Of a stretch of 64,000 nt of DNA, positions 13,789-35,509 are shown piece after piece. Below the pieces are notes generated by a model. That model had not been told where the DNA came from and made no database searches. It was given only the letters and a program-made list of their open reading frames with translations. Both the position numbers and the translations under genes were made by a program. The DNA is taken from the NCBI GenBank assembly GCA_021732215.1, contig JAKFVL010000009.1, positions 124,001-188,000 of the forward strand, given 5' to 3'. Every line of letters starts with the position of its first letter. The first letter of the stretch is position 1. The DNA is from Hyphomicrobiales bacterium (GTDB lineage: Bacteria > Pseudomonadota > Alphaproteobacteria > Rhizobiales > Xanthobacteraceae).

Positions 13789-13792
13789 GCAG

Positions 13793-17436: not shown

Positions 17437-17462
17437 CGTGAGCCGAACCTGATCCGCTCGCG

Positions 17463-18188: not shown

Positions 18189-18223
18189 GTTGCTGGCGAA
18201 CCGCTTCCCTTGATCCATTTCTA

Positions 18224-19342: not shown

Positions 19343-20572
19343 TCAGCCCTTCTTCACCAGCGGGCAGGCGCTATCCTTCAGCGGGCGGAATGCATGATCG
19401 CCCGGGATGACCTCACGCAACTTGTAGAAATCCCAATCGCCCTTCGACTCCGATGGCTTCTTGACCTCGTAAACGTACATGTCGTGGACCATGCGGCCAT
19501 CCTCGCGGATTCGGCCGTTCTTTGCGAAGAAGTCGTTGACCGGGAGTTCGCGCATCTTGGCCATCACGCTCTGGGCATCGTCCGTACCGGCGGCCTGTAT
19601 CGCTTTCAGATAGTGCATCGTCGACGAGTAGTCGCCAGCATCGCCCATGTGCGGTACGCGCTTCATGCGCTCGGAGAACCGCTTGGACCACGCGCGCGTT
19701 TCCTCGTCGCGATCCCAATAGAAGGCATTGGTCAGGATCAGTCCCTGGGCAACCTGAAGTCCCAGCGCCTTGACGTCCGTGATCCAGACAAGCAATCCCG
19801 CAAGCGTTTGGCCGCCCTTCTGAATACCGAATTCCTGCGCGGACTTGATGGAGTTTACCAGCACGTTGCCGGAGCCGGCCAGTGCGACCACTTCAGCCTT
19901 CGAGGCTTGCGCTTGCAACAGGAAGGACGATTGATCGAACGTCTCGATCGGATATCTGGTGGCCCCGACGACTTCGCCGCCAAGACCTTTGACGACCGCC
20001 GAAGTGTCCGCCTCCAACGCATGCCCGAACGCATAGTCTGCCGTCAGGAAGTACCACTTCTTCTTGTTCGCATGTAGCAAGGCGCTGCCCGTGCCGCGGG
20101 CCAGCGCATAAGTATCGTACGCATAATGAATGCTGTTGGGCGTGCAAGCGTCGTTGGTGATGCGTGACGATCCGGATCCATTGATAATCGCGATCCTGTT
20201 CTTTTCCTTGGCGAGCTGCGACACGCCGAGTGCGATCGATGAGTTGATCAAGTTAGCGATCATGTCGACCTTTTCGACATCGATCCATTTCCGCGCCAAA
20301 CCGAGGGCGATGTCGGGCTTGTTTTGATGGTCGGCTACGACCACTTCGATGGTCTTTCCAAGCACCTTTCCGCCGAAATCCTCGACCGCCATCTTGACCG
20401 CGGTGACGGCGCCCTCACCGGATTCGTGGGAGAACTGACCGGACATGTCGGTCAATACGCCGATCTTTACGACATCGTCGGAAATGGGGACTTTCGTCTG
20501 GGCGTTGACGCTATTGGCGAACAAAACCGCAGCCGCCGCGGCGGCAAAAGCCGTGTGCCTTCCCGTTGTCAT
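19343..20572 (-). CDS. Branched-chain amino acid-type ABC transporter substrate-binding protein (orphan)
   Basis: A 409-residue periplasmic type I binding protein. The signal peptide ends near AQTK, and the mature part opens VKIGVLTDMSGQFSHESGEG. The ATG at 20572 has an excellent ribosome binding site (GGGAGG, six bases upstream), better than the alternative at 20596. No permease or ATPase is adjacent. It is divergent from the tandem HxlR regulator, with two operator-like repeats in the shared gap, and the same operator precedes the molybdenum hydroxylase operon. It therefore probably captures that pathway's substrate and docks with a Liv-type permease, perhaps LivHMGF at 32153-35492. Confidence 0.88.
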   Translation of the reverse strand: MTTGRHTAFAAAAAAVLFANSVNAQTKVPISDDVVKIGVLTDMSGQFSHESGEGAVTAVKMAVEDFGGKVLGKTIEVVVADHQNKPDIALGLARKWIDVEKVDMIANLINSSIALGVSQLAKEKNRIAIINGSGSSRITNDACTPNSIHYAYDTYALARGTGSALLHANKKKWYFLTADYAFGHALEADTSAVVKGLGGEVVGATRYPIETFDQSSFLLQAQASKAEVVALAGSGNVLVNSIKSAQEFGIQKGGQTLAGLLVWITDVKALGLQVAQGLILTNAFYWDRDEETRAWSKRFSERMKRVPHMGDAGDYSSTMHYLKAIQAAGTDDAQSVMAKMRELPVNDFFAKNGRIREDGRMVHDMYVYEVKKPSESKGDWDFYKLREVIPGDHAFRPLKDSACPLVKKG

Positions 20573-20616
20573 GACCGACCTCCCTGAAAAAACCATCGGC
20601 TTTCCGCCTTATGTCA

Positions 20617-20660
20617 GTTACATGCATAACTAGACTTAATGACATGCACAACTAGACTGA
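20617..20660. promoter_or_regulatory. Tandem operator repeats between binding-protein gene and HxlR regulator
   Basis: The sequence ACATGCAYAACTAGACT occurs at 20620-20636 and 20642-20658, 22 bases apart, two helical turns. The first copy begins within GTTA-CATGCA-TAAC, a dyad with 4-base arms. A near-identical copy lies at 29561-29586. The position between two divergent starts suggests binding of the adjacent HxlR-type regulator; this is inferred. Confidence 0.6.
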
Positions 20661-20685
20661 TATTTTCTCGAAGTCAACTGCGGCG

Positions 20686-21792
20686 ATGTGTTACACGAGC
20701 CCTGTTTTAGGAGCCGCCGATTTTGCGCGGCCGTGCAATAAGATCGGCCTAACAATGCCCGCCGCAGCGAAAGTTCAGGCAAAACGACCACCAGTCAGAT
20801 CGGATGCGAAGACTGCAGGACGGACCGGTGCTGTAAGGCGCGAGCGAAACTGCTCGGTAGCGCGAACCCTCGACATCGTCTCGGATGCGTGGGCTTTCCT
20901 GATCATTCGCGAAGCATTCTTCGGAACGCAGACATTCGAGGCTTTCCGTTCAGCTCTCGGAATCCCCCGTGCAACTCTCACCGGCCGCTTGAGAAAGCTC
21001 ACAGAGCTTGCAATTTTCCGTCAAGTCGCGACCGGTACGTCGCAGCGCAAAGAGTATCGTCTGACCAGGATGGGGTTTGATCTCTACCCAAGTTTCATCG
21101 CGCTTATGCAATTCGGCGACCGGTGGCTCAGCGAAGGAAAGCCGCCGCCCCTGACGCTCGTTCACTCAAAGTGCGGCTGCGACAGCCATCCGCTGGTTTC
21201 CTGCTCTTCCTGCGGCCAGGGCGTCAAGGCGCGGGATGTGCAGTATCGCGATGGGCCAGGCGCAGGCCGGCATCCCGCAAAAAACAGCCGTAACACCAGG
21301 CGGGCATCGGATGGCGGTCGCTTTCAGCTTGGTCGCCCGAGCTCGGTCTCGCGGGCCTTACAGATCATCGGCGACAAGTGGAGCTTCATGGTCGTCCGCG
21401 AAGCCTTTTTTGGCAACCGGCGTTACGACAAGATCCTGACCGCGCTCGAGATCGCTCCGAACATCTTGACCGACAGGCTCTCGCGCCTCGTCGCGAATGG
21501 CGTATTTCGCCGGCGCCAATATCAAAACTCACCCGATCGCTACGAATATCTCCTCACCGACATGGGGATGGACCTCTACGGTCCATTCATTGCGATGTTG
21601 CAATGGGGTGACCGCTGGCTCTCCAAAGGAAAGCCGCCTCTTCTGCTCAAACATCTTTCATGCGGAAGCGATTTTCGCGCGTCAGTCGTTTGCAATCGAT
21701 GCAACGAGCCAATTGTCGCCGCCGACATGCAGTACAAGCTGGCTTACGATCCAACGGCGTTTGGCGCGCTCGGACCGCGATCCATTACTTGA
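20686..21792 (+). CDS. Tandem two-domain HxlR-family transcriptional regulator
   Basis: A 368-residue protein with two complete HxlR winged-helix domains in a row. Domain 1 is about residues 56-155 (CSVARTLDIVSDAWAFLIIREAFFG) and domain 2 about 219-315 (SSVSRALQIIGDKWSFMVVREAFFG). Each is followed by LSEGKPP or LSKGKPP and a Cys cluster: C163, C165, C173 and C176, then C326, C336 and C339. Ordinary HxlR proteins are about 110-130 residues with one domain and dimerise, so this is a covalent pseudo-dimer with possible metal or redox sites. The start may instead be the ATG at 20755, which trims a poorly conserved N-terminus. It probably controls the divergent binding protein and the 21877-29498 operon. 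Confidence 0.85.
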   Translation: MCYTSPVLGAADFARPCNKIGLTMPAAAKVQAKRPPVRSDAKTAGRTGAVRRERNCSVARTLDIVSDAWAFLIIREAFFGTQTFEAFRSALGIPRATLTGRLRKLTELAIFRQVATGTSQRKEYRLTRMGFDLYPSFIALMQFGDRWLSEGKPPPLTLVHSKCGCDSHPLVSCSSCGQGVKARDVQYRDGPGAGRHPAKNSRNTRRASDGGRFQLGRPSSVSRALQIIGDKWSFMVVREAFFGNRRYDKILTALEIAPNILTDRLSRLVANGVFRRRQYQNSPDRYEYLLTDMGMDLYGPFIAMLQWGDRWLSKGKPPLLLKHLSCGSDFRASVVCNRCNEPIVAADMQYKLAYDPTAFGALGPRSIT

Positions 21793-21793
21793 G

Positions 21794-21842
21794 GCATGAT
21801 CCCGAAAATTGGACTTCCGGTTTTCGGAACAGGATCATTCTC
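21794..21842. repeat. Rhizobial-type intergenic palindromic repeat
   Basis: ATGATCC (21796-21802) pairs with GGATCAT (21832-21838), and GAAAA with TTTTC inside, giving a long imperfect hairpin with a GGACTTCC-like centre. It closely resembles a palindrome scattered between genes in Bradyrhizobium and relatives. It lies just after the HxlR stop codon and before the convergent ligase gene, where it could also help end transcription. Only this copy was seen here. Confidence 0.6.
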
Positions 21843-21876
21843 ATTCACAGCGGCAAATTGCTGTAACGAAGCCAGA

Positions 21877-23418
21877 TCAAGCCTTGGAATTCAGCGCTTC
21901 AACCAGTTTGAAGCGCATGATCTTTCCAGAGCCCGTGCAGGGAATCTCCGGAACCACATGCGTGGATTCTGGAATTTTGTAGGCCGACAGATGCGCCCGG
22001 CAGTGATCCATGAGCGAACTCACGTCCAATTCGTGCTGAGCCACGACAAAAAGGCCGGGCACTTCGCCGAGCGTCGCATGTTTGAGCCCAACCACCGCAC
22101 AATCCTTGACATGCGGATGCCTGATCACAACCTCCTCGATCTCGGCGGGTGCGATATTCTGACCGCCGCGAATGATCAGCTCCTTGATCCGGCCGGTGAT
22201 CGTCAAGTAGCCGCAAGCATCGGACTTCGCGAGGTCACCTGTGTGATACCATCCCTTGCGGAGTGCAGCGGCTGTCTCTGCGGGCTTGTTGTGATATCCC
22301 TTCATCAGATTTGGTCCGCGCACGATCAACTCGCCTTCCCCGCCGAGCAAAACGTCTTCCAGAGAAGATGGATCGACGATGCGAACGGCCAGTCCGGGCA
22401 CCGGCAGCCCGCATGAGCCTATCGGCCGCCCGCCGTGAAGCCAGTTCATGGTCACCATCGTCGACGTCTCGGTGATGCCGTAGCCATCGAGCAGCGGCGT
22501 CTTGAAATGCTCCTCGAAGCTGCGATTGAGCGTAGCCGGCATAATCGCGCCGGCGGAAATGCACAGACGCAAATTTCCAAGCTGTCTGATGCCGCTCTCC
22601 TGAGCACGATGTAAAAGGTAATGGAACATCGTCGGCACGCCGGGCAGCACGGTGTATTTTCCACTCTGCATGAGATCCAGCGCAGTCTGCGGCGAGAACT
22701 TCTCCATAATGTGTTCGCTCGCGCCGACAGTCAGGACGCAGAGGACGGAAAGGTTCAAGCCGTAAGAATGGAATAGCGGCAACGGCGAAAGAACCACGTC
22801 CTTCGCGCTCAGCTCGCAGATCGGGGCCCAGCATGAGGCCGTAATCCACAGCATTCCGCGAAGCGACAGCAACACGCCCTTTGCGCGACCTGTCGTCCCG
22901 GAGGTGTAGATGATGAAGGACGTGCGATCGATATCGTCGGAATCCAGTGGCTTTGCCTCGATCGTTGTTGCCAATGCAGCCATCGACGACCCGGTCCGCT
23001 GGGCATCCGGTCCGGCATAGATTTCTCTGGGCGAAATTCCGGTATCGCGACAGACCTTCGTAATCAAATCCTTTCTCGCCGCAGTGGTGACGACCGTCCC
23101 GCAATCTGCATCGGTCAATCGATAGCTGACCTCGCCTTCCGCCGCGTCGAAGCTGATGGGCACGATCACGGCGCCGGCGCGCAAGCCAGCAAGACACGCC
23201 TCGATCCAGTCCACGCCGTTGGGTAGATAGAGCGCGATCCGGTCGCCCTCACGTATCCCGGCTTTCGTCAGATTTGCGGCGATCGACGCCGTGCTCCTCG
23301 CCAGCTGCCCGTAGGTGATCGAGCGCGACGAATCCCAGTACGCGACCTTTTCCGGCCGCTCTTCGGCATGCCGGGCAAGAAGTCTTCCGATCGGCGCGAT
23401 CAGGTCGACGTGCATCAT
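21877..23418 (-). CDS. Acyl-CoA synthetase (AMP-dependent ligase)
   Basis: A 513-residue class I adenylate-forming ligase. Visible motifs are IIYTSGTTGRAKGVLLS, DGYGITETSTMV, WYHTGDLAKSD, RIKELIIRGGQNIAPAEIE and the C-terminal catalytic Lys in GSGKIMRFKL. It would convert a carboxylic acid to an acyl-CoA, the natural first step before the crotonase encoded at the other end of this operon. It is the last gene of the leftward operon, 13 bases after the SDR, and has GGGAG upstream of its start. The acid is unknown; an aromatic or heterocyclic acid is suggested by the molybdenum hydroxylase. Confidence 0.88.
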   Translation of the reverse strand: MMHVDLIAPIGRLLARHAEERPEKVAYWDSSRSITYGQLARSTASIAANLTKAGIREGDRIALYLPNGVDWIEACLAGLRAGAVIVPISFDAAEGEVSYRLTDADCGTVVTTAARKDLITKVCRDTGISPREIYAGPDAQRTGSSMAALATTIEAKPLDSDDIDRTSFIIYTSGTTGRAKGVLLSLRGMLWITASCWAPICELSAKDVVLSPLPLFHSYGLNLSVLCVLTVGASEHIMEKFSPQTALDLMQSGKYTVLPGVPTMFHYLLHRAQESGIRQLGNLRLCISAGAIMPATLNRSFEEHFKTPLLDGYGITETSTMVTMNWLHGGRPIGSCGLPVPGLAVRIVDPSSLEDVLLGGEGELIVRGPNLMKGYHNKPAETAAALRKGWYHTGDLAKSDACGYLTITGRIKELIIRGGQNIAPAEIEEVVIRHPHVKDCAVVGLKHATLGEVPGLFVVAQHELDVSSLMDHCRAHLSAYKIPESTHVVPEIPCTGSGKIMRFKLVEALNSKA

Positions 23419-23431
23419 CGCCCCATTCTCC

Positions 23432-24181
23432 CTAAATCATGCTGAAGCCGCCGCTTATGCTGATGGTTTGTCCGGTGATCCACCCGCCTGCGTCTGACGC
23501 AAGCAGTGCGACCATCGGCGCGATATCGGACGGCAGGCCGAGCCGTCGGATTGCGTAGGCTTTGACGAGCTTCTCGCGATTTGCCTCGACCCAGGTCTTG
23601 TCGTGCTCGGTCTCGATCAAACCGAGAGAGATCGAATTGGCCGTCACGCCCGAACGCCCCCATTCCCGCGCGAGAGATTTCATCAGGGCAATGGTGCCCG
23701 CGCGGGAGGCTGCGGCAAGCGCGAGTCCGGATTCACCGACGCGCGACGAATCTCCCATGATCGAGATGATGCGGCCGCGGCCGGAAGCCTCAAGCAACGG
23801 ACCGGCGCTGTGGCAACAATTGAGCGCGCCGTAGAGGCACGTATCGATCTGCGTCTTCCAGTCGTCGGGCGTGGATTCAGCGAAGCGTTTCCGGAACACC
23901 AGACCGGCATTGTTGACGAGAATATCGAGCTTGCCGAAGTCGCTCTTGACATCCGCCACAAGCTGCCTGACGACGCCAGCGTCGGCGATATCGGCCTGGA
24001 AGGCCTTGGCCTTGCCGCCGGCCTTTTGAATGTCGGCGACCACGGCCTCTGCCGCACCTTTCGAGTTGTGATAGTTGACCGCGATTGTCGCGCCCGCGGC
24101 CGCCAGCGTTTTCGAGATCGCCGCGCCGACATCGCGACCGCCACCCGTAACGAGCGCAACGCGCCCCTGAAGATCGATCAT
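23432..24181 (-). CDS. Short-chain dehydrogenase/reductase fold protein with degenerate active site
   Basis: A 249-residue SDR. The cofactor-binding region is conserved (VALVTGGGRDVGAAI, NNAG at 91-94) and so is the C-terminal GWITGQTISISGG. The catalytic YxxxK is not: by alignment with the usual YxAsKaG pattern the Tyr is Ala156 and the Lys is Arg160 (LALAAASRAGT). It is therefore either a non-classical enzyme or a binding or structural protein. ATGA overlap with the molybdenum hydroxylase large subunit gene shows co-translation. It is the sixth of seven genes in the leftward operon. Confidence 0.82.
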   Translation of the reverse strand: MIDLQGRVALVTGGGRDVGAAISKTLAAAGATIAVNYHNSKGAAEAVVADIQKAGGKAKAFQADIADAGVVRQLVADVKSDFGKLDILVNNAGLVFRKRFAESTPDDWKTQIDTCLYGALNCCHSAGPLLEASGRGRIISIMGDSSRVGESGLALAAASRAGTIALMKSLAREWGRSGVTANSISLGLIETEHDKTWVEANREKLVKAYAIRRLGLPSDIAPMVALLASDAGGWITGQTISISGGFSMI

Positions 24182-26577
24182 CGGGATTTTTCCTCTGCTT
24201 TCGATTTGGATTGCTTGATCAGCTGAAAAATGCGTTCCGGCGTCATCGGGAGAATCGAGACATCGGCGCCGAACGGCGACAGGGCATCGGCGATCGCATT
24301 TGCGATGGCCGCAGGCGCGCCTATGGCGCCGCCTTCGCCCATGCCGCGAAAGCCACCGGCCACCGCGGACTGGCTCTCGACGTGCACCACGTCCATATTC
24401 GGCACTTCAAGCGCCGACGGGATCACGTAATCGACAAGACTTGCAGTCAGAAGCTGAGCGTCGTCATCGTAGACCAGTTCTTCGAACAGGGCCGCACCGA
24501 TTCCCTGCGCAACTCCGCCGTGGACCTGCCCGTCTACGATCATGGGGTTGATGATCTGGCCGCAATCTTCGGCAACCACGTACTTCAGGATATGCACGAA
24601 GCAGGTCACCGGATCGATCTCGACCACCGCAATGTGCGTGGCAGCCGCGGTCGTCCCGTTGATCGGGTCGTAGGTATAGCTCGCGGTCAATTCTTCGCGC
24701 GCATCGACCGGCAACGTCCTCGTGTCGGAATAGACAGCTTTCGCGATCTGCTTGAACGTCACGAAGCGATCGGTGCCGGACACCATTGCCTTTCCGCCGG
24801 ACACCTCGATGTCATCATTGTTGGCTTCCAGCAAATGTGAAGCGACGCGCTTGATCTTGTTTTGGAGAAGCGCAGAGGCGTGCTTGGCCGCGCCCCCGCC
24901 AAGGACCGCACTCCGGCTCGCGTAGGTGCCGGTCGACATCGGCACCGCATCGCTATCGCCCTGGACAACGCGGATGTCATCGAAACTTGCGCCGAGGTCG
25001 TCGGCGATGATCTGCGCCAGCGTCGTCTCAAGCCCCTGGCCGTGGGAGGCCACGCCGAACGCCGCTGTGATTGCGCCGGTCGAATCGATGGAAATCTTCG
25101 CCGTCTCCGAACCGGTATTAATCGGCATTCCCGGAGCGGCGGGTATACGCGATCCGATACCGGTCAGTTCGGCGTAGGACGCAATGCCGATTCCGAACAG
25201 CTTCCCCTGCTTGCGCGCCTCGGTCTGCTGGGCGCGAAGCCGATCATACGCGGCAGTTTGTCCCGCTGCTTCGAGGCACTCGATGAACCCGGTCTTGTCC
25301 CAGATGATTCCGGATGCGATCCGATACGGAAATTCGTTCGGGCGAACCAGATTGCGGCGCCGGATTTCCAAGGGGTCAAGTCCGAGCGCCTTGGCGCCGA
25401 GATCCATCAGTCGTTCGGTAACGAACGTCGAGATCGGCCGCCCGACGCCGCGGTAAGGTCCGGTCGGCGGTTTGCAGGTGGCAACGCCCCGAACGGCGCC
25501 GCGATAGGACCCGATCTTGTAGGGGCCCGGGAGGAAGCTGACGACCTGCACCGGCTCCAGACCGCAGGTCCACGGATAGATCGAGTATGCGCCGATGTCC
25601 CCGATCACATCCGCTTTCAACGCGATGGCAACACCATTCGAATCGAATCCCATTTCGGCGTCCACGATTTCCGCGAATGCCTGACTGCTGCTGCTGACGT
25701 CCTCGAGACGATCGGCCGTCCATTTGAGCGATCTGCCGAGTTTGCGCGCCGCGATGCACATCAGCATTTCCTCGGGATACAGGGAACCCTTGGACCCGAA
25801 GCTCCCGCCAACGTCAGGCGCCACGACACGCATCCGGTTGCCAGGGATGCCAAGCGACTCGGATAGCGCATCGCGGACGATTCCCGGGATGTTCGAGGAT
25901 GTGTAGAGCGTCAATGCACTGCGTCTTGCGTCGTATTCAGCGGTATAGCTACGCGGCTCCATTGCGAGCGGCGCCTTGCGGGTCATCTCGAACCGGCCAC
26001 TGACCCGGACAGCGGCTGCGCTCAAATCCGCATCGACATCGCTTTTCTTGAACTCGCGTGCGATGAGAACGTTGGTGCCAGCTTCCTCGTGGAGCAGCGG
26101 AGCATCGCTTGCGACGGCCGCTCCTGCGCGAGAAATCGCGCCGAGCGGTTCGTAGTCGATCTCGATCAGCTCGACCGCGTCTTCCGCGAGGTAGCGCGAG
26201 GTCGCAATGACGGCCACGACCGCCTCTCCGACGTAGCGCACCTTGCCGGAGGCGAGCGGCATGATCGGCGTGGCATAATAGCTCGACATCCGCGAGAACG
26301 GGATCACCGGCTTGAAATCGCCAGCGATGCTGTCAGCGGTCAAAACCGCGACAACTCCGGGTGTCGCAGACGCTGCTGTAGTATCGATGCGAATGATTTT
26401 TGCGTGCGGCTGTTCGCTTCGGCGAAAGGCAACGTGAAGCGCGCGGTCCGGCTTGCGATCGGCGGTGTATTCGCCGCGCCCTGTGAGCAGTCGCGGATCT
26501 TCCGTGCGCTTGATCGGCGCGCCGACGTGACGGGGCCGCAGCACGTCTGCCGGCTGTGCAAGGCGATCGCTACTCAT
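24178..26577 (-). CDS. Molybdenum hydroxylase large subunit (xanthine dehydrogenase / CoxL family)
   Basis: A 799-residue molybdopterin cytosine dinucleotide-binding subunit. It opens GAPIKRTEDPRLLTGRGEY as CoxL-like proteins do. The active-site loop reads GPYRGVGRP near residue 370, unlike the AYRCSFR loop of true CO dehydrogenase, so CO is not the substrate. The catalytic Glu lies in GMGEGGAIGAP near residue 745. Such enzymes hydroxylate aromatic heterocycles, aldehydes or purines using water. The frame opens at 26673, but the ATG at 26577 overlaps the upstream lactamase-fold gene by 8 bases and starts at the normal N-terminus. Its partners are the 27328 and 27818 subunits. Confidence 0.9.
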   Translation of the reverse strand: MSSDRLAQPADVLRPRHVGAPIKRTEDPRLLTGRGEYTADRKPDRALHVAFRRSEQPHAKIIRIDTTAASATPGVVAVLTADSIAGDFKPVIPFSRMSSYYATPIMPLASGKVRYVGEAVVAVIATSRYLAEDAVELIEIDYEPLGAISRAGAAVASDAPLLHEEAGTNVLIAREFKKSDVDADLSAAAVRVSGRFEMTRKAPLAMEPRSYTAEYDARRSALTLYTSSNIPGIVRDALSESLGIPGNRMRVVAPDVGGSFGSKGSLYPEEMLMCIAARKLGRSLKWTADRLEDVSSSSQAFAEIVDAEMGFDSNGVAIALKADVIGDIGAYSIYPWTCGLEPVQVVSFLPGPYKIGSYRGAVRGVATCKPPTGPYRGVGRPISTFVTERLMDLGAKALGLDPLEIRRRNLVRPNEFPYRIASGIIWDKTGFIECLEAAGQTAAYDRLRAQQTEARKQGKLFGIGIASYAELTGIGSRIPAAPGMPINTGSETAKISIDSTGAITAAFGVASHGQGLETTLAQIIADDLGASFDDIRVVQGDSDAVPMSTGTYASRSAVLGGGAAKHASALLQNKIKRVASHLLEANNDDIEVSGGKAMVSGTDRFVTFKQIAKAVYSDTRTLPVDAREELTASYTYDPINGTTAAATHIAVVEIDPVTCFVHILKYVVAEDCGQIINPMIVDGQVHGGVAQGIGAALFEELVYDDDAQLLTASLVDYVIPSALEVPNMDVVHVESQSAVAGGFRGMGEGGAIGAPAAIANAIADALSPFGADVSILPMTPERIFQLIKQSKSKAEEKSR

Positions 26578-27331
26578 AACCCTCGCGTCCTTTGCGCAGC
26601 GTCCGCCATTGCCCGTCGTCGTGACCGCAGATGACTGTGGCTCCCGACTTCTCGATACGCCGCACCTCGCCATAGGACTTCAAAAGCGCGTCCGCATTCC
26701 AGGTGTTACGTGGCGCTTGGTCGTCGTCGAGATGCTTCCGCAAACTGATGGCGTCGGACGCAAGCAGGAATTGCCCGTCGCGATCGAGGTTGACGAGCGC
26801 GCCGAGCGTACCCGGTGTATGGCCCGGCAATGGCACGAGAACGACCTTGCCGTCGCCGAACAAATCTCGTTCTCCGGCAACGGTTTCGATCGTTTGCCCG
26901 ACATCCCAATCGTTGCGCAGATAGCCGGCAGCTTCCGCACCCGGCGCGGAAGCGGCCGCCAGCTCTTTTTCGTGCGCGAGAATGGTCGCCCTCTTGAAAA
27001 ACTGGTTACAGCCGCAGTGATCCGGATGAAAATGCGAGTTCACGACAATGTCGATATCGCCCGGCTCCAACCCGACACATGCAAGGCTCGGTAGGAGCAT
27101 TTCGTCCGCGCTCATGAGAGGCTTCATCACTTTCGCGAGCGGGCCCCAACGCTCCTCTGCATTTTCCACGACTGATGGATGGCAGCCGGTATCGAACAAC
27201 ACGTTGCCTTGCTTGTGCCTGATCAGAGCGCTGCTGACCGGAAGATCGATCGTCTCGCTACGATCTGCGTCCGGGATGTAGATGCTCTTTTTCATCCGGA
27301 CGCGGCCGGCGGAAAGAAAATTCAGCTTCAT
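26570..27331 (-). CDS. Metallo-beta-lactamase-fold hydrolase (N-acyl homoserine lactonase-like)
   Basis: A 253-residue zinc hydrolase with the HxHxDH motif (His100, His102, Asp104, His105 in SHFHPDHCG), a third His in GHTPG, the metal-bridging Asp in LASDAI and a final His in CGHDD. The pattern resembles AiiA/AttM lactonases, but many relatives open other lactones or thioesters. The ATG at 27331 overlaps the small-subunit stop (ATGA) and its stop overlaps the large-subunit start by 8 bases. It is thus inserted between two subunit genes of one enzyme. A lactone- or thioester-opening step in the same pathway is inferred; quorum quenching is less likely here. Confidence 0.85.
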   Translation of the reverse strand: MKLNFLSAGRVRMKKSIYIPDADRSETIDLPVSSALIRHKQGNVLFDTGCHPSVVENAEERWGPLAKVMKPLMSADEMLLPSLACVGLEPGDIDIVVNSHFHPDHCGCNQFFKRATILAHEKELAAASAPGAEAAGYLRNDWDVGQTIETVAGERDLFGDGKVVLVPLPGHTPGTLGALVNLDRDGQFLLASDAISLRKHLDDDQAPRNTWNADALLKSYGEVRRIEKSGATVICGHDDGQWRTLRKGREGYE

Positions 27332-27810
27332 TGCGTCTGCTCCCGGCGAATTGCCGCGGCACTGCGGATCGCGGCGACGATATTTTGATACCCTGTGCAG
27401 CGGCAGAGGTTGCCGGACAACCCTTCCCTGATCTCCTCGTCGGTCGCGAACGGATATTTGCGGAGCAAATCCTCGCCGGTCATCAGCATACCGGGCGTGC
27501 AGAATCCGCACTGGAGCCCGTGATGCTCGCGGAACTGAGTCTGCAACACGTTGAGCGTTTCAGGTGTTCCCAGCCCTTCGACCGTCGTGATCTCGCAGCC
27601 GTTAGCTTGTACCGCGAGCGTGAGGCAGGACCGCACGCTGTCGCCGTTCAACAGCACGGTGCAGGCCCCGCACACGCCGTGCTCGCAGCCGACATGAGTG
27701 CCGGTCAACCCGAGCGCGTCGCGCAAAAAATCAGACAGCAGCAAACGGGGCTCGAGATCAGCGACCTCGCGTCTCGTTCCGTTCACGATGACTGACACCT
27801 TCACGGCCAT
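27328..27810 (-). CDS. Molybdenum hydroxylase small subunit, two [2Fe-2S] clusters (CoxS-like)
   Basis: A 160-residue iron-sulfur subunit. The N-terminal plant-ferredoxin-like cluster uses Cys in GCEHGVCGACTVLLNG plus a later RSCL Cys. The C-terminal helical cluster uses CGFCTPG and NLCRCTGYQNI. It carries electrons from the molybdenum centre to the FAD subunit. Seven bases separate it from the medium-subunit gene, and ATGA links it to the hydrolase gene. Fully typical in length and motifs. Confidence 0.93.
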   Translation of the reverse strand: MAVKVSVIVNGTRREVADLEPRLLLSDFLRDALGLTGTHVGCEHGVCGACTVLLNGDSVRSCLTLAVQANGCEITTVEGLGTPETLNVLQTQFREHHGLQCGFCTPGMLMTGEDLLRKYPFATDEEIREGLSGNLCRCTGYQNIVAAIRSAAAIRREQTQ

Positions 27811-27817
27811 GCCGGAT

Positions 27818-28678
27818 CTATCCCTTCATCGCCAGCGCGGTGGTCATGGCGCGTTTGGCCAATCCGGCGAGAAGATGCTTTCGATACTCTCCAGAGGCGT
27901 GCAGATCGCTGTTTGGCGTCACGCTTGAAGCCACCCATTCCGCGAAGCGGTCAGATATCCGGCCATCGATGCCGCTCTCAACAAGTCTTTTCTCGACGTC
28001 ACCGAGCCGCAGCGGTGTATCGGCAACACCCATCACGGCCACCCGGGCATCCTCGATGCCGGATGCACCACGACGGATCGACAGTGCGACGCTTGCGAGC
28101 GCAAAATCACCGAAGCGCTTGGCTGCTTCTTCAAAAGCCCAGCCATCGTGCCTGAGGATCGGAAATTCGATCTCGGCCACGATGTCTTCGGGCTCCAGAC
28201 AGTTCGTCAAAGCATCGACGAAAAAATCTTTCGCTGCGATCGTGCGGCGTCCGCCCGGTCCTTGCACAGCGAGGCGCGCGTCGTAAAACATCGCCAGCAT
28301 CGGCAATTCGGCCGCGGGGTCCGCATGGGACAAACTGCCACCGATCGTCCCCCGATTCCGGATCGCCAGATGCGCCACGTGGCGCATCGCCGCTGACATG
28401 ACAGGCAAGTCGGAAGCGATCAGCGGCGAATGCTCGATGTCGCGATGGCGGGTCAGCGCCCCGATCGCCACATGGTCGCCGCGCTTTTCGATGAACGACA
28501 ACTCCTTGATGCCATTCAAATCGACAAGGACGGCGGGCCGCGTCATCCGGAAGTTCAGCAACGGCAGCAGACTCTGGCCGCCGGCGAGGAGCTTCCCTTC
28601 GCCATTGGCTGCGGCGAGTGCCTCCACAGCGGCGTCCAGCGTTGCAGGCGCGACGTAGTCGAATCCGGCCGGCTTCAC
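27818..28678 (-). CDS. Molybdenum hydroxylase medium subunit, FAD-binding (CoxM-like)
   Basis: A 286-residue FAD-binding subunit of the CO dehydrogenase / xanthine dehydrogenase type. The FAD-binding motifs AGGQSLLPLLNFR and IRNRGTIGGSLSHADPAAE (TIGG type) are clear, with the CO_deh_flav_C domain following. It passes electrons from the iron-sulfur subunit to an external acceptor. The gene order medium, small, then large with an inserted hydrolase is unusual only for the insertion. Start ATG at 28678, second gene of the operon. Confidence 0.92.
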   Translation of the reverse strand: MKPAGFDYVAPATLDAAVEALAAANGEGKLLAGGQSLLPLLNFRMTRPAVLVDLNGIKELSFIEKRGDHVAIGALTRHRDIEHSPLIASDLPVMSAAMRHVAHLAIRNRGTIGGSLSHADPAAELPMLAMFYDARLAVQGPGGRRTIAAKDFFVDALTNCLEPEDIVAEIEFPILRHDGWAFEEAAKRFGDFALASVALSIRRGASGIEDARVAVMGVADTPLRLGDVEKRLVESGIDGRISDRFAEWVASSVTPNSDLHASGEYRKHLLAGLAKRAMTTALAMKG

Positions 28679-28721
28679 GAGTGTCGTCCTTGAGGGTGCA
28701 TGATCACTCGCTTTGCCATTC

Positions 28722-29498
28722 TCATTCGCCGCGAAAATTCGGAGTTCGCTTCTCCGCGAAGGCCGTTCGCCCCTCTTTGAAATCCTGGCTGTCGGATGCT
28801 TCGTCGATCAATCGCTGCGCCGAAGCTAGATCGAGAGAACCGGCGCCCATGGAAAGACCGTTGAGCATGAACTTGGCCCCGGCTATCGACAGCGGTGCAT
28901 TGGCTGATAAACGACGGGCGAATTCTTCTGCCGCGGTAACGACATCGTCATGCACCTCGTCAATCAAACCCATCGATCTCGCCTGCTCGACAGGGTAACG
29001 ATCGCCGGAGTAGAGAACGCGCTTCGCATTCACTATTCCAACCAGCGCCGACAGCCGCCGCACGCTGTCGATCCCATAAATGATGGATAGCTTGGCCGAC
29101 GGGATGCCCACAACAGCCGTCCGGTCGGCGAATCGAAAGTCGCAAGCCAAAGCGAGATGGCAGCCTCCGCCGAGACAGTAACCCGACAACGCGGCGATCA
29201 CCGGCTTTCCCAGATTCGCAATTGCCCCCGAGCACGCATCGACGGCAATTTCATAGTCACGACTTTGCTGTTTGTCGTTTCTGATCGCATCGAACTCGGA
29301 TATGTCGGCTCCGACGCTGAAGTCCTTCCCGCTGCCCGTCAATACGACCGCGCGCAGCGATCGGTCCGCGGCGATACGGGTAAAGATTTCAGCGATCTCC
29401 CGCCACATCTCAAGCGTGACGGCATTTCTCGCCGATGGCCGGTTCAGAACGACGTGCGCAAGGCCATTCTGCGCTCTGATGTCGATGGCTTCCGACAC
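28722..29498 (-). CDS. Crotonase-family (enoyl-CoA hydratase/isomerase-like) protein with altered active site
   Basis: A 258-residue crotonase-fold protein with the oxyanion-hole segments FSVGADISEF and ALSGYCLGGGCHLALACD. Of the two catalytic glutamates of classical enoyl-CoA hydratase, the first (GGGCE) is His and the second (PE) is Ser in GIPSAKLS, so water addition by the usual mechanism is doubtful. Isomerase, hydrolase, dehalogenase or ring-cleaving crotonases remain possible. The GTG at 29498 follows AGGAG at good spacing and gives the standard length; the frame opens at 29546. First gene of the leftward operon, behind the operator-like sequence at 29561-29586. Confidence 0.82.
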   Translation of the reverse strand: MSEAIDIRAQNGLAHVVLNRPSARNAVTLEMWREIAEIFTRIAADRSLRAVVLTGSGKDFSVGADISEFDAIRNDKQQSRDYEIAVDACSGAIANLGKPVIAALSGYCLGGGCHLALACDFRFADRTAVVGIPSAKLSIIYGIDSVRRLSALVGIVNAKRVLYSGDRYPVEQARSMGLIDEVHDDVVTAAEEFARRLSANAPLSIAGAKFMLNGLSMGAGSLDLASAQRLIDEASDSQDFKEGRTAFAEKRTPNFRGE

Positions 29499-29586: not shown

Positions 29587-29715
29587 TTCGGGCGCGTCAA
29601 GGCCGTGAAAATCGGATTGTATGCCCATGGCTCAAGTGAGCTGCCAATCTCATTGGTCGCACTCGCAACAAGACTTGGCTATTGTAGCGGCGATCGGAAA
29701 CCGCCGGGCAATCAC

Positions 29716-30657
29716 GTGGATATTCGTCAGCTTCGCTGCTTTCTGGCAACCGTCGAAGAAGGATCCCTGTCTGCGGCCGCCGTGAAGCTGCAATTGGCGC
29801 AGCCTTCGCTGTCGCAGCATATCGTGAAACTGGAGGATGAACTGGGGGTTCAACTCCTGGTCCGAGGGCCGCGCGGCGTCATGGTGACGGAGGCGGGTCA
29901 CTCCCTCGCCACGCATGCCCGGACCATTCTCGAAGTCCTCGCTATCGCTGCCGAGGACGTGCGGAATTGCGGCGGCGAACCGCGGGGGTCTGTATCGATT
30001 GGTCTGCCGTCTTCGCTGAGCATGATTTTGAGCGTCCCCCTCGCCGAAACGGTCCTCAACGAATATCCACAGATCCGCCTCCGCCTTGTCGAAGCCATGT
30101 CGGGCCACATTCAATCCTGGATAACCGACAACACGATCGATCTCGGATTTCTTTACGACGTCCAGCAGACGCGGCATCTCGTATGCAGGCCGCTGTTCAC
30201 GGAAAACCTCTTTGTCGTCGCAGCGGCGGACAATTGGGCGATGCAACCCTCGACGCCCATCCGGCTGACGGACGTAGCCAATCTGCCGCTGGTTTTGCCG
30301 AGCCGGACGCACGGACTACGCGAGATCATCGAGCGGCATGCGCGCGCAAACAATATCACGCTCAACGTGATGCTTGAGATCGACGCCTTGACACAGATCA
30401 AGGCGCTGGTGTCCCGTGCCAGCGCCTACACAATTCTCGCTCACGCGGCAGTGCTGGACGAGATCGAAAGCGGCGAACTCGTTCTGGTCCCGATCGTCGA
30501 ACCGGCATTGAAACGAACGGTCTCGCTTGTGCGCAATCCCGGCCGGCTCGTGACGCGGGCCAGCCTCGAGGTGGAGCGGCTGACCGCCGAACTCATTTCC
30601 GAGTTGATCAGGCGACGGCGCTGGCAGGCCGAGGAATTCAATCAAACCGGGCCATAG
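29716..30657 (+). CDS. LysR-family transcriptional regulator
   Basis: A 313-residue regulator from the GTG at 29716 (VDIRQLRCFLATVEEGSLSAAA, the standard LysR opening). The helix-turn-helix ends near residue 60, and a NAC/Cbl-like effector domain follows (GSVSIGLPSSLSMIL). An upstream in-frame GTG at 29605 would add 37 atypical residues. It stands between two catabolic units, divergent from the crotonase operon and directly before the LivK-type gene, and could regulate either. A direct repeat at 30654-30682, at the end of this gene and before the LivK-type gene, is a candidate site. Confidence 0.85.
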   Translation: MDIRQLRCFLATVEEGSLSAAAVKLQLAQPSLSQHIVKLEDELGVQLLVRGPRGVMVTEAGHSLATHARTILEVLAIAAEDVRNCGGEPRGSVSIGLPSSLSMILSVPLAETVLNEYPQIRLRLVEAMSGHIQSWITDNTIDLGFLYDVQQTRHLVCRPLFTENLFVVAAADNWAMQPSTPIRLTDVANLPLVLPSRTHGLREIIERHARANNITLNVMLEIDALTQIKALVSRASAYTILAHAAVLDEIESGELVLVPIVEPALKRTVSLVRNPGRLVTRASLEVERLTAELISELIRRRRWQAEEFNQTGP

Positions 30658-30682
30658 GCTTTCACAGCCACCTATAGGCTTT
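30654..30682. promoter_or_regulatory. Direct repeat ahead of the Liv-type operon
   Basis: ATAGGCTTT occurs at 30654-30662 and 30674-30682, 20 bases apart, with the first copy overlapping the LysR stop codon. A spacing near two helical turns suggests a regulator binding one face of the helix, possibly the upstream LysR protein. Evidence is limited to the repeat itself. Confidence 0.3.
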
Positions 30683-30792
30683 GCCGATAGCCGCTCAAGG
30701 CTGCGCTTGCCTTGTTGAACGGCAGACGGCCTGAAACACTTCCGGTCAAAACAAAGAACATTCGTCTAACCATGCACTCGGGGAGAGCGCTC

Positions 30793-32091
30793 ATGAGAAA
30801 AACGTTCGCAATCGCAGTCGCTGCTGCGCTGCTGGGAATAACGCCGTCCGGTTTCGCAGCCGACAAACCCGCCGAGCTAAAAATCGGCATCACGACGTTC
30901 TCCTCGGGTCCCGCGTCGGTCTTTGGGGTTCCGGGCAAGGCCGCGGCCGAACTATTGATCGACGAATGGAACAAGACAGGAGGCATTGGAGGCGTTCCGG
31001 TCAGGCTTTTCTTCGTCGACGAAGGCGCGGGAACGCAAGCCTTGCTGGCCGAGTACCGCCGTCTGGTTCAGGAAGAAAAAGTTGCCGTGATGTTCGCATC
31101 GATTTCGAGTGGAAACTGCCAGGCCGTCGCGCCGCTCGCCGAGGACCTCAAGGTTCTGAACTACATGTGGGACTGCGGCACCCAGCGGATATTGGAGGAA
31201 GGCAAATTCCGCTACGTCTATCGCCCGCAATCCTATGGCACGCCCGAAATGCTTTCCACCGTGCTCTACATGCTGCGCAAGAAGCCCGACCTGAAAACCA
31301 TCGCGGTGGTGAATCAGGATTATGCGTGGGGCCGCGATAGCTGGCAGTTGTTTTCCACCGCGCTGAAAGCCCTCAAGCCAGACGTCAAGGTCGTTGCCGA
31401 GCTGTTTCCCAAACTTGGGGCTGCCGACTTTTCAACGGAAATATCACGCCTGCAGGCGTTACGTCCGGATGTCGTGCTGTCCACTTCGTGGGGCGGCGAC
31501 CTCGATACGCTCGTGCGTCAGGCCAATCAGCGCGGGCTGATGAACCAATCGCTGTTTGTGTTGCCGTTGGCCGAGAGCTCGCTCGAACGGCTCGGCTCCG
31601 ACATGCCGGAAGGCGTCATTGTTGGGGCACGGGGCAACAACTACTTCCTCAATCCGGAATACAAGGACAAGCCCGAGTTCAAAGCGTTTGTTGACGCTTT
31701 CCAGAAGAAGACCGGCGCCTATCCGATCTATCCAGTTTTTCACATGGCGCAGTCCTTGTCCGCGCTGCGTAACGCCTATGAAAAGGCGATCAAGGCGAAT
31801 GGCGGCCAGTGGCCGAGCCATGAGCAGGTCGCTGACGCTACCAAAGGAGTGACTGCAGAAGCCTACAGCCGGCCGATCATGATACGAGAGGACGGCCAGG
31901 GGCTTGCCGATCAGTTGCTTGGCGTATCCAAGCGTGATCCGAAGTACAAGTTCGCGATCATGGATGACATGGCGGTCTACCCGGCCGACAAGATTTCTAC
32001 ACCGGTCGGCAAGATCTCGATCGAGTGGTTGAAGACGATCGAACCCTCGATGCTCAACCTTCAGGTTTCGACCTTCAAGCACGCCATGTGA
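30793..32091 (+). CDS. Branched-chain amino acid-type ABC transporter substrate-binding protein
   Basis: A 432-residue periplasmic binding protein with a signal peptide at about residues 1-23 (ending GFAAD) and a mature part opening LKIGITTFSSGPASVFG. The ATG at 30793 has a GGGGAG ribosome binding site; the frame opens earlier at 30712 but lacks one there. It heads a complete Liv-type import operon with two permeases and two ATPases. In this setting the ligand is probably an aromatic or related acid rather than leucine, as in several Rhodopseudomonas binding proteins for lignin-derived acids. Confidence 0.9.
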   Translation: MRKTFAIAVAAALLGITPSGFAADKPAELKIGITTFSSGPASVFGVPGKAAAELLIDEWNKTGGIGGVPVRLFFVDEGAGTQALLAEYRRLVQEEKVAVMFASISSGNCQAVAPLAEDLKVLNYMWDCGTQRILEEGKFRYVYRPQSYGTPEMLSTVLYMLRKKPDLKTIAVVNQDYAWGRDSWQLFSTALKALKPDVKVVAELFPKLGAADFSTEISRLQALRPDVVLSTSWGGDLDTLVRQANQRGLMNQSLFVLPLAESSLERLGSDMPEGVIVGARGNNYFLNPEYKDKPEFKAFVDAFQKKTGAYPIYPVFHMAQSLSALRNAYEKAIKANGGQWPSHEQVADATKGVTAEAYSRPIMIREDGQGLADQLLGVSKRDPKYKFAIMDDMAVYPADKISTPVGKISIEWLKTIEPSMLNLQVSTFKHAM

Positions 32092-32097
32092 CCGCAA

Positions 32098-32130
32098 GGA
32101 CAGGGCGGAGCTACAACCGCCGCCCTGTCC
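32098..32130 (+). terminator. Intercistronic hairpin, attenuator-like
   Basis: GGACAGGGCGG (32098-32108) pairs perfectly with CCGCCCTGTCC (32120-32130), an 11-base GC-rich stem with an 11-base loop, followed by AATTTT. It resembles an intrinsic terminator with a weak T-run, placed between the binding-protein gene and its permeases. Partial termination or mRNA protection would give excess binding protein. Confidence 0.65.
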
Positions 32131-32152
32131 AATTTTCACGAGGCCGATCGAC

Positions 32153-33058
32153 ATGACTTCGGACCTGCTGCTGATCGCGGCGCTGGACGGCATCGCCTAT
32201 GCGGCGCTTGTCTTCCTCGTGGCCGTCGGGCTCACCCTGATTTTTGGCGTCCTGCGCGTTCTCAATATAGCGCATGGCAGCTTCTATGCGCTGGGGGCTT
32301 ACGTTGCAGCAAGCCTTGGCATCGGAATAGCCGCGTCGAAGATTTCACCCTGGCTCTCCTATCCTGCGCTCGCAGTTGCGGCCGCCATCGTCGGAATCGT
32401 CGTCGGTTCGGCAATCGAGCGACTGCTCTTGCAGCGAATCTACGACAAGGAAGAAGTGCTGCAGCTTCTTGTCACGTTCGCTGCATTCATGATCCTCGAC
32501 AATGCGCAGCGGCTGATCTGGGGCGTACAGCCATACTTCGTCGCCACTCCTCTTCAGCTTCTCGGCAACGTGCAGATCGGCGGCATTACCTATACCGTCT
32601 ATCAGATCATCGTGTTGCCAGCCGTGGCCTTGCTGGTCCTCGCGGGGATGAGGCTGTTCCTGCGCCGAACCGTTTCCGGTCGGGTCATTCTGGCCGTGGC
32701 GGAAGATCGTGAAGCCGCCCGTGCAATCGGAATCAACGTACCGCGCGTCTATCTGTGGACCTTCGTGATCGGATCGATCCTTGCCTCACTGGGAGGATCG
32801 CTTGCGTCGCCGACCACGTCGATCCTGCCCGGCATGGGCACCGACATGCTCGTGCTCTCCTTCGCCGTTGCAGCCTCTGCCGGACTTGGCCGAATCGAAG
32901 GAGCGGCCATCACCGCCCTGCTGATCGGACTTGGCCGCTCCGCCGCAGTGTACTGGGCGCCGGAGCTGGATGTGCTGGTGCCTTACCTCATCATGACGCT
33001 GGTGCTGCTGGTAAAACCGCAGGGCTTGTTCGGCACCCTTCAGGCGCGGAGGATTTGA
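32153..33058 (+). CDS. livH: Branched-chain amino acid-type ABC transporter permease (LivH-like)
   Basis: A 301-residue polytopic permease with about eight hydrophobic segments. The LivH opening (AALDGIAYAALVFLVAVGLTLIFGVLRVLNIAHG, shown in parts) ends in the LNIAHGSFYALGAY motif. The cytoplasmic coupling loop holds EDREAARAIGINVPRVYL. The stop overlaps the next start as TGATG, so the two permeases are translated together. Gene symbol denotes family only; substrate is likely not leucine here. Confidence 0.9.
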   Translation: MTSDLLLIAALDGIAYAALVFLVAVGLTLIFGVLRVLNIAHGSFYALGAYVAASLGIGIAASKISPWLSYPALAVAAAIVGIVVGSAIERLLLQRIYDKEEVLQLLVTFAAFMILDNAQRLIWGVQPYFVATPLQLLGNVQIGGITYTVYQIIVLPAVALLVLAGMRLFLRRTVSGRVILAVAEDREAARAIGINVPRVYLWTFVIGSILASLGGSLASPTTSILPGMGTDMLVLSFAVAASAGLGRIEGAAITALLIGLGRSAAVYWAPELDVLVPYLIMTLVLLVKPQGLFGTLQARRI

Positions 33059-34808: not shown

Positions 34809-34811
34809 CAG

Positions 34812-35492: not shown

Positions 35493-35509
35493 ACGCGGAG
35501 GAAATATCG

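Follow-up and report, generated by a model that had tools for sequence, protein, structure and literature searches.

A conserved CoA ligase, molybdenum hydroxylase, and lactonase locus with a possible role in the degradation of small cyclic carboxylic acids

Introduction

Which compound is degraded by an operon that combines a CoA ligase, a three-subunit molybdenum hydroxylase, and a lactonase-fold hydrolase? Such a gene set lies in a 64,000-nucleotide stretch of a Hyphomicrobiales genome, referred to here as the window (contig JAKFVL010000009.1, positions 124,001 to 188,000). A preliminary description placed seven co-transcribed genes at 21877–29498 and proposed the activation, hydroxylation, and cleavage of an aromatic or N-heterocyclic acid, possibly continued by an intradiol dioxygenase encoded at 36814. 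The reading that we tentatively favour, with somewhat less than even confidence, is that 19343–29498 encodes the import and breakdown of a small carboxylic acid with a ring, most probably a furan-type acid whose ring is five-membered and heteroaromatic.

Gene content and extent of the locus

The seven genes are intact, contain no internal stops, and all lie on the minus strand where they had been placed; Pfam assignments agree with each of the seven families as first named. Two further conserved genes, at 19343–20596 and 20686–21792, had been missed, and gene conservation puts the limits of the locus at 19343–29498, with the following content:

19343..20596, minus: periplasmic substrate-binding protein of a branched-chain-amino-acid-type (HAAT) ABC transporter (Pfam Peripla_BP_6)
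20686..21792, plus: transcriptional regulator, double HxlR (Pfam HxlR, two stretches)
21877..23418, minus: acyl-CoA ligase, AMP-forming (AMP-binding and AMP-binding_C)
23432..24181, minus: SDR oxidoreductase, FabG/acetoacetyl-CoA-reductase-like (adh_short_C2)
24178..26577, minus: molybdenum hydroxylase large subunit (L), 799 aa (Pfam MoCoBD)
26570..27331, minus: metallo-beta-lactamase-fold lactonase, AttM-like (Pfam metallo-beta-lactamase fold)
27328..27810, minus: molybdenum hydroxylase small subunit (S), two [2Fe-2S] clusters (Fer2 and Fer2_2)
27818..28678, minus: molybdenum hydroxylase medium (FAD) subunit (M), 286 aa (FAD_binding_5 and CO_deh_flav_C)
28722..29498, minus: crotonase-family enoyl-CoA hydratase/hydrolase, first gene of the operon, GTG start (ECH_1)

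The best solved relative of the binding protein is 3i09 (433 bits), and the start of L is best placed at the ATG at 26577. Gaps of 43 and 7 nucleotides separate crotonase from M and M from S; S overlaps the hydrolase gene by 4, the hydrolase gene overlaps L by 8, and L overlaps the SDR gene by 4, with a gap of 13 between SDR and ligase. Three of the six junctions overlap, and co-transcription itself is suggested by the spacing. Promoter and terminator scans found 3 and 8 sites, whereas shuffled sequences gave 3.1 and 9.0, and hence no excess. The double-HxlR protein is probably the regulator of the operon. The GC content of the genes at 21877–29498 (0.608) is near that of the left flank (0.604; window 0.581), and thus there is no sign of foreign composition.

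Conservation across orthologous loci

Conservation was scored in 54 orthologous loci, the window included, which are mutually related rather than independent and vary in length (10 fall short of 15 kb); L085 and L088, which duplicate L050 and L068, were left out, as were the short loci L001–L044. The controls, all taken from the same scan, were 64 other Mo-hydroxylase loci (L100–L164 without L109) whose large subunits are 37–45% identical to L. A partner was counted at 45% identity (CoxG 40%, intradiol dioxygenase 44%) over 60% of the query. Partners were drawn from a chosen list, and so the recurrent neighbours are at least those named here and further ones may exist.

The SDR recurred in 43 of the 54 case loci against 2 of the 64 controls, and the ligase in 24 against 3. 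No control locus carried the lactonase (31/54), the crotonase (28/54), the HxlR regulator (28/54), the HAAT binding protein (26/54), a thioesterase (20/54), an Fe-ADH (12/54), or a 4-hydroxybutyryl-CoA dehydratase (6/54), and one each carried an SSADH (10/54) and a Zn-ADH (6/54). The two alcohol dehydrogenases never occur together: the Fe type is found in 12 case loci and the unrelated Zn type in 6 others. Among the control exceptions is L107 (Nocardioides), in which ligase, Zn-ADH, and SSADH lie beside L, with a weaker thioesterase (44%) and SDR (40–43%). The lactonase falls below threshold in 23 of 54 loci, partly because the stretches end first, and L091 has a metallo-hydrolase of a different family beside the SDR. 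Because these partners recur in the case loci and are rare in the controls, the gene set is not a product of chance, and the conserved partners bear out the proposal of a co-ordinated catabolic operon.

The gene set often sits on plasmids in bacteria that live with plants, and it is found in other soil bacteria too and—judging by record titles—in marine ones; plasmid records label the large subunit merely as 'xanthine dehydrogenase family protein molybdopterin-binding subunit'. Beside L092 and L093 lie genes of the UbiD, luciferase-like monooxygenase, and VOC kinds, identified by eye; these are closely shared by those two relatives only and so were not drawn on. Neighbours of the M81 peptidase, CaiB-like, and CurA-like kinds were seen in too few loci to count.

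The molybdenum hydroxylase

L carries the active-site loop GPYRGVGRP, in which YRGVGRP is invariant across an alignment of 16 orthologues (a separate loop-pattern scan matched another YRG in 14 of the 16 rows), and a C-terminal GEGG whose Glu we take to be the catalytic-type residue. Its best PDB profile match is the large subunit of quinoline 2-oxidoreductase (Qor; 1t3q) at 744 bits, compared with 552–624 bits for solved CoxL and 211–222 bits for solved aldehyde oxidases and oxidoreductases; 6-hydroxypseudooxynicotine dehydrogenase is also among its close solved relatives. The best curated NCBIfam model, glyceraldehyde dehydrogenase alpha, gave 620 of the 790 bits needed. The 4-hydroxybenzoyl-CoA reductase models TIGR03193, 03194, and 03195 were likewise missed, at 177/258, 391/995, and 116/405 bits, the last pair being the score and cut-off of M on the beta model. 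S contains nine Cys, eight of which show the spacing usual for two [2Fe-2S] clusters.

A large-subunit phylogeny, an early suggestion for this locus, was run on 39 chosen rows with a midpoint root. L and its orthologues form their own clade (support 100/100) within one branch with Qor (98/96), though not as its direct sister, while HmfA of the 2-furoyl-CoA (hmf) pathway falls outside that branch; L and HmfA are not sister groups. On the evidence of loop and tree, L is neither a form I CO dehydrogenase nor HmfA.

Lactonase, ligase, and enzymes of four-carbon acids

The hydrolase carries the metal motif HFHPDH with downstream H, D, and H, in keeping with the AttM/BlcC metal-binding pattern (HxHxDH plus H, D, H), and residues H100, H102, D104, H105, H171, D193, and H237 are invariant in five aligned sequences. 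AttM is its best NCBIfam model, at 142 bits under a cut-off of 390, and one solved match carries the label beta-lactamase. The ligase lies under the curated cut-off in all of the best 25 of 108 NCBIfam families matched, and its nearest solved chains (about 250 bits) are labelled fatty-acyl-CoA synthase and feruloyl-CoA synthetase. The pyridoxine pathway, which pairs an SDR with a 4-pyridoxolactonase-like protein, was considered and rejected, the SDR reaching 166 of 325 bits and the lactonase 110 of 325 on the curated models.

Enzymes acting on C4 acids are a minority feature of the sister loci: 44 of the 54 have no SSADH and 48 no dehydratase, some of these stretches being short. The Aminobacter SSADH exceeds the curated SSADH cut-off (722 versus 646 bits). 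The Aminobacter Fe-ADH reaches 232 of 500 bits on the 4-hydroxybutyrate dehydrogenase model, with ErcA and sulfoacetaldehyde reductase scoring higher, and thus the models do not single it out as an enzyme of 4-hydroxybutyrate. For the B. elkanii dehydratase (L045), vinylacetyl-CoA isomerase (6vjr) is a solved match at 797 bits, and the Cys and His residues of the dehydratase are invariant in four sequences. Beside the window operon itself, SSADH, 4-hydroxybutyrate dehydrogenase, and 4-hydroxybutyryl-CoA dehydratase are absent; elsewhere in the window genome, an SSADH (76%) lies on another contig, and the best matches to the Fe-ADH and thioesterase are 29% (partial) and 26%. Together with a hydrolase near AttM, the occurrence of thioesterase, Fe-/Zn-ADH, SSADH, and dehydratase in part of the sister loci suggests that the product is a four-carbon hydroxy or oxo acid and not a catechol.

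Alternative explanations

The continuation first proposed—an aromatic acid converted to a catechol-type intermediate and then cleaved by the intradiol dioxygenase at 36814—now appears very improbable. The gene is a genuine member of the catechol dioxygenase family about 7 kb away; however, the window is the only one of the 54 orthologous loci in which it and the LysR gene exceed the threshold. The dioxygenase lies in a plus-strand row with the LysR gene, an SDR, and genes for a binding protein and for permease- and ATPase-like products. Homologues of the dioxygenase are present in 91 of the 198 family genomes, and in the 13 other genomes with both genes, the two are separated by at least about 90 kb (G122) or sit on different contigs, although draft contigs could hide a nearer placement. 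Scarcely credible at all is a carbon monoxide dehydrogenase of form I or form II, for which speak the gene order M-S-L as in form I, a YRG-type loop as in form II, an XdhC-family gene near L087 (Paucimonas lemoignei DSM 7445, which carries the full set), and CoxG genes in 23 of the 54 sister loci. Form I is defined by the active-site loop AYXCSFR (PMC13203968), whereas L has GPYRGVGRP, and the earlier exclusion of CO dehydrogenase from this loop therefore holds for form I. Form II has the signature AYRGAGR and the order S-L-M, against PYRGVGR and M-S-lactonase-L here, and NCBIfam CO dehydrogenase models score 477–588 bits under cut-offs of 950–991.

The operon adjoins hmf pathway genes in two lineages, with a third, weaker case in Rokubacteria. 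In L075, L076, L080, and L091, hmfABCDE lies directly before M-S-L(-SDR), hmfD and hmfE of L091 being 61% and 68% identical to the Cupriavidus cluster; in L069, hmfA and hmfB are 2–3 kb away. All 11 class-sample genomes with L carry HmfA-family genes, against 15 of 374 without L, and within the family the enrichment is weak (13/26 versus 51/172) among relatives that are not independent; the L and HmfA counts are taken to come from the same genomes, since counts and handles agree. This neighbourhood, and an HmfA orthologue (59%) elsewhere in the window genome, at C18, favour another furan upper or lower pathway, in which SDR and Mo enzyme would produce 2-furoate from furfuryl alcohol or furfural, or a divergent hmf operon for 2-furoate. 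We consider this improbable in view of the low identities (L 35–36% to HmfA, ligase 31% to HmfD, crotonase 29–34% to HmfE, with 34% to that of Cupriavidus), the position of HmfA outside the branch of L and Qor, and the HmfA that the genome already has. L is not orthologous to HmfA, which is about 1000 aa long with a C-terminal CoxG-like part, and HmfD and HmfE have no orthologues in the ligase and the crotonase; that the operon is hmf itself is ruled out by these identities and the tree. The 2-furoate route ends at 2-oxoglutarate and has no lactonase assigned (PMC6678421). Such an end point does not call for ADH, SSADH, or dehydratase.

Rather unlikely, in our estimation, is a pathway for gamma-butyrolactone, cyclic ethers, or C4 diols in which the Mo enzyme oxidises an aldehyde or a lactol. 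SDR or ADH would convert the alcohol to the aldehyde and the Mo enzyme the aldehyde to an acid or lactone; the lactonase would yield 4-hydroxybutyrate and the ligase its CoA ester, leading to crotonyl-CoA or succinate. One simple substrate class would then cover dehydratase, crotonase, SDR, ADH, SSADH, and AttM-like lactonase, and the best NCBIfam model of L is indeed an aldehyde-oxidising enzyme. Solved aldehyde oxidases are, however, far from L and Qor is near, neither the dedicated binding protein nor the hmf neighbourhood is explained, and the window genome yielded no dehydratase. Similarly doubtful is an N-heteroaromatic acid of the pyrrole, pyridine, or quinoline type, hydroxylated next to the nitrogen to give a lactam that the metallo-hydrolase would open. 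It draws on Qor and 6-hydroxypseudooxynicotine dehydrogenase as solved relatives, and on a protein of RidA-like appearance (named by eye; NCBIfam models gave no match at E 1e-25) that follows the SDR as a conserved gene in L075, L076, L080, and L091. Against it, the hydrolase is nearest to lactonase models (142 versus about 36 bits for beta-lactamase models), no amidase or deaminase is among the recurrent partners counted, amidase-family genes (27–38% identical to a window amidase) occur in 5 of 59 loci, and Fe-/Zn-ADH and SSADH suggest an oxygenated, not an aminated, C4 product. Homarine and an isonicotinate route were also tried as candidates and set aside: in the open-access literature searched, no paper joined all terms for the former and nothing pertinent was found for the latter.

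Proposed pathway and significance

Activation, Mo-hydroxylation, and hydrolytic ring opening, as originally envisaged, form the most economical reading of the gene set, and the open-access literature searched yielded no characterised pathway with the whole set. Starting from the enzyme families, the intact genes, their conservation, and the affinities of L, we infer what the substrate is, how the steps are ordered, that a lactone forms, and which C4 compound results. For the small cyclic acid favoured here, the binding protein would hand the acid to an ABC transporter, and the ligase would form its CoA thioester. The M-S-L hydroxylase would then add a water-derived hydroxyl beside the ring heteroatom, with the product tautomerising to a lactone, which the AttM-like lactonase would open to an open-chain oxo-acid thioester. 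This thioester could be carried on by SDR and crotonase or released by a thioesterase. The C4 skeleton would exit as succinic semialdehyde/4-hydroxybutyrate, on the way to succinate, or, in loci that have the enzymes for it, as 4-hydroxybutyryl-CoA, on the way to crotonyl-CoA; in the window strain, the end steps would require enzymes encoded elsewhere. Acids resembling 3-furoate fit this scheme on paper: 3-furoyl-CoA would give 2-formylsuccinyl-CoA, and its free acid would lose CO2 to form succinic semialdehyde.

The breadth of the conserved gene set implies a common natural substrate. It is conceivable, if on balance unlikely, that the locus represents a second CoA-dependent route for five-membered heteroaromatic acids (e.g., 3-furoate), parallel to hmf, with its own ring-opening lactonase and ending at succinic semialdehyde/4-hydroxybutyryl-CoA, in Pseudomonadota, Actinomycetota, and uncultured Rokubacteria/Binatota. 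If the lactonase and C4 exit are right, the locus would offer a second template for heteroaromatic acid degradation and could clarify the role of CoxL-like enzymes with a YRG-type loop.

Comparison with known systems

Quinoline 2-oxidoreductase, the nearest solved relative of L by profile, shares YRGVG in its loop but is not the direct sister of L in the tree. A homologue of 4-hydroxybutyryl-CoA dehydratase/vinylacetyl-CoA isomerase accompanies six of the 54 sister loci and has no counterpart found in the window genome. With attKLM, the AttM/BlcC gamma-butyrolactone pathway, the operon has an AttM-like lactonase in common, and the Rhizobium, Agrobacterium, Aminobacter, and Paucimonas loci add Fe-ADH and SSADH, making up the same trio of activities; the operon hydrolase, however, gains only 142 of 390 bits on the AttM model, and we know of no Mo hydroxylase, ligase, or crotonase in att/blc. 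The hmfABCDE cluster of Cupriavidus basilensis HMF14 likewise comprises a CoA ligase, a three-subunit Mo hydroxylase, and a crotonase-family enzyme. Its Mo hydroxylase acts on the thioester, as that of the present operon presumably does, and to this shared plan the operon adds a lactonase, an SDR, and, in some sister loci, enzymes of C4 hydroxy and oxo acids.

Gene organisation and extent of the locus

Seven intact genes run along the minus strand of the window from 29498 down to 21877, as the preliminary description had proposed, and the boundaries are here widened to take in two more genes that accompany the same genes in near relatives:

21877-29498, minus strand: from 5′ to 3′, crotonase, FAD subunit (M), two-cluster [2Fe-2S] subunit (S), metallo-beta-lactamase-fold hydrolase, molybdenum large subunit (L), SDR, acyl-CoA ligase
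20686-21792: double-HxlR regulator
19343-20596: HAAT-type binding protein

The genes had been described as overlapping, which is true of three of the six junctions (4, 8, and 4 bases), whereas the remaining three are gaps of 43, 7, and 13 bases. For the large subunit, the ATG at 26577 is the best start. Among the NCBIfam matches listed (up to 25 for each protein; the ligase, SDR, and crotonase match more), no family reaches its curated cut-off, and thus none of the seven proteins is an assigned equivalog.

Affinity of the molybdenum large subunit

In a profile search against PDB, the large subunit matches quinoline 2-oxidoreductase at 744 bits, CO dehydrogenases at 552–624, 6-hydroxypseudooxynicotine dehydrogenase at 584, the putative molybdenum oxidoreductase subunit 4zoh at 448, 4-hydroxybenzoyl-CoA reductase at 390, and aldehyde oxidases/oxidoreductases and xanthine dehydrogenases at 211–222. 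The phylogeny that had been suggested as a check (39 rows, midpoint root) recovers all ten target rows as a single clade (100/100) inside the branch with quinoline 2-oxidoreductase (98/96), with HmfA outside. A competing signal comes from NCBIfam, where glyceraldehyde dehydrogenase alpha scores best (620 of 790 bits).

The earlier exclusion of CO dehydrogenase on the strength of the loop GPYRGVGRP is borne out for form I. By the definitions in PMC13203968 and PMC7645674, form I enzymes carry AYXCSFR and form II enzymes AYRGAGR with gene order S-L-M; the loop matches neither motif, and the S-L-M order is also missing.

Distribution and conserved partners

A sample of 198 family genomes holds close relatives of the large subunit (54–84% identity) in 26, spread over 13 of 47 genera, and a class sample of 385 genomes holds them in 11, the window's own genome being counted; the locus is therefore accessory. 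Plasmid copies are found in Bradyrhizobium elkanii (84%) and, at about 61%, in Rhizobium, Agrobacterium, Sinorhizobium, and Aminobacter, with two more plasmid records at 41–43%. Genome copies occur in a Rhodopseudomonas MAG (78%), Xanthobacter, Paucimonas, Rokubacteria, Binatota, and further alphaproteobacteria that are marine by record titles.

Partner genes at 54 orthologous (case) loci, the window included, and at 64 control loci of other molybdenum hydroxylases
Lactonase: 31/54; 0/64
SDR: 43/54; 2/64
Ligase: 24/54; 3/64
Crotonase: 28/54; 0/64
HAAT-type binding protein: 26/54; 0/64
HxlR regulator: 28/54; 0/64
CoxG: 23/54; 4/64
4HBT-type thioesterase: 20/54; 0/64
Fe-ADH: 12/54; 0/64
Zn-ADH (unrelated to Fe-ADH, at loci other than the Fe-ADH loci): 6/54; 1/64
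SSADH: 10/54; 1/64
4-hydroxybutyryl-CoA dehydratase: 6/54; 0/64

Some controls are exceptions. Among them, L107 (Nocardioides) carries beside its large subunit a ligase, Zn-ADH (50%), SSADH (47%), thioesterase (44%), and SDR (40–43%); L105 (Actinomadura) has a ligase, SDR, aldehyde dehydrogenase (36%), and Zn-ADH (38%), and L106 (Acidimicrobiia) a ligase and SDR. Since the large subunits of these three group together next to the target clade (90/91), the core gene set seems to reach across phyla. Several of the case loci L064–L074 hold crotonase, lactonase, SDR, and ligase as one block separate from M-S-L, and the operon thus behaves as two modules.

Intradiol dioxygenase and neighbouring genes

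Other features of the window are:

29605-37677, plus strand: LysR, binding protein, permease- and ATPase-like genes, SDR, intradiol dioxygenase (Dioxygenase_N/C)
11933-18218: oligopeptide-type ABC transporter genes, with an amidase (15044-16459) and an Asp/Glu/hydantoin racemase family gene (17463-18218)

The dioxygenase at 36814 had been offered as a possible continuation of the pathway. It and the LysR gene each reach the partner-count threshold at one of the 54 case loci, the window itself; dioxygenase homologues are present in 91 of 198 family genomes, and in the 13 other genomes with both homologue and large subunit the two are separated by about 90 kb or more or lie on different contigs. 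A catechol continuation is therefore not supported. The earlier observation holds with corrected boundaries, its interpretation in part, and the locus is best called a conserved CoA- and molybdenum-dependent degradation operon with a putative pathway. The plus-strand row looks like an independent catabolic island, and 11933-18218 may serve the use of amides or cyclic amides.

Putative pathway and product

Taken together with the window hydrolase, whose nearest NCBIfam model is AttM (142 bits of 390) and which retains all seven metal-binding residues, the thioesterase, ADH, SSADH, and dehydratase partners suggest as product a C4 acid that ends in a hydroxyl or aldehyde group. The Aminobacter SSADH scores above the curated SSADH cut-off; its Fe-ADH falls short of the 4-hydroxybutyrate dehydrogenase model (232 of 500) and scores better on two other models. 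Against 6vjr, a solved vinylacetyl-CoA isomerase, the B. elkanii dehydratase scores 797 bits, and its Cys113, Cys117, His305, and Cys311, presumably the cluster ligands, are invariant in the four sequences compared. In the window genome, the dehydratase was searched for and not found, Fe-ADH and thioesterase give weak matches, and an SSADH gene sits on a different contig; it is here that the final steps are least certain. In L069, from the window's own family, a 111-aa open frame (14547-14882) directly follows the ligase, where L053 has a full dehydratase gene; by eye it resembles the dehydratase N terminus, and is apparently a decayed operon member.

The data establish the protein families, the integrity of the genes, the conserved set with its statistics, and the phylogenetic affinity; the pathway itself is inferred. 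An acid would be taken up, activated with CoA, and hydroxylated next to a ring heteroatom; the product would tautomerise to a lactone, which the AttM-like enzyme would open, and further steps would lead to a C4 hydroxy/oxo acid. One candidate that fits on paper is 3-furoate: by chemical reasoning, C5 hydroxylation and ring opening would give 2-formylsuccinyl-CoA, which could yield itaconyl-CoA (SDR reduction, crotonase dehydration) or succinic semialdehyde (thioester hydrolysis, CO2 loss).

Alternatives and comparison with the furan pathway

That the molybdenum enzyme is instead an aldehyde/lactol oxidase in a route for C4 diols and lactones seems unlikely, and a variant furan pathway is improbable. 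An N-heteroaromatic acid as substrate, with a lactam-opening hydrolase, is likewise doubtful; it draws on a RidA-like protein, so judged by look, that follows the SDR in L075, L076, L080, and L091. After the SDR of L091 (13150-14455), the RidA-like protein (by eye) is accompanied by a different metallo-beta-lactamase-family protein (Lactamase_B_3), and the AttM-like lactonase is missing.

In L075, L076, L080, and L091, hmfABCDE lies directly upstream of M-S-L-SDR, and in L069 hmfA and hmfB lie about 2–3 kb from the operon, where the stretch taken ends. The Rokubacteria and Binatota control contigs (L100, L101) carry molybdenum hydroxylase large subunits as tandem pairs; in L100, a 45% relative of the large subunit is followed by an HmfA-like one (46%), whose match is too short for the partner-count threshold. 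In the class sample, all 11 genomes with the large subunit carry HmfA-family genes, versus 15 of 374 without it, a figure inflated by shared ancestry; in the family sample only 13 of 26 genomes with it do so, versus 51 of 172 without. An HmfA orthologue (59%) is encoded on another contig of the window genome (C18:61726-64698), which may thus also degrade 2-furoate. The reference hmf cluster, from Cupriavidus pinatubonensis and unnamed in its record, was recognised by gene content and order with the help of the description in PMC6678421 and the usual naming of subunits A, B, and C. The degradation operon is alike in logic to hmf but falls outside it. A lactonase is a frequent member of its loci (31/54), whereas the hmf pathway, according to PMC6678421, has no gene assigned to lactone hydrolysis.
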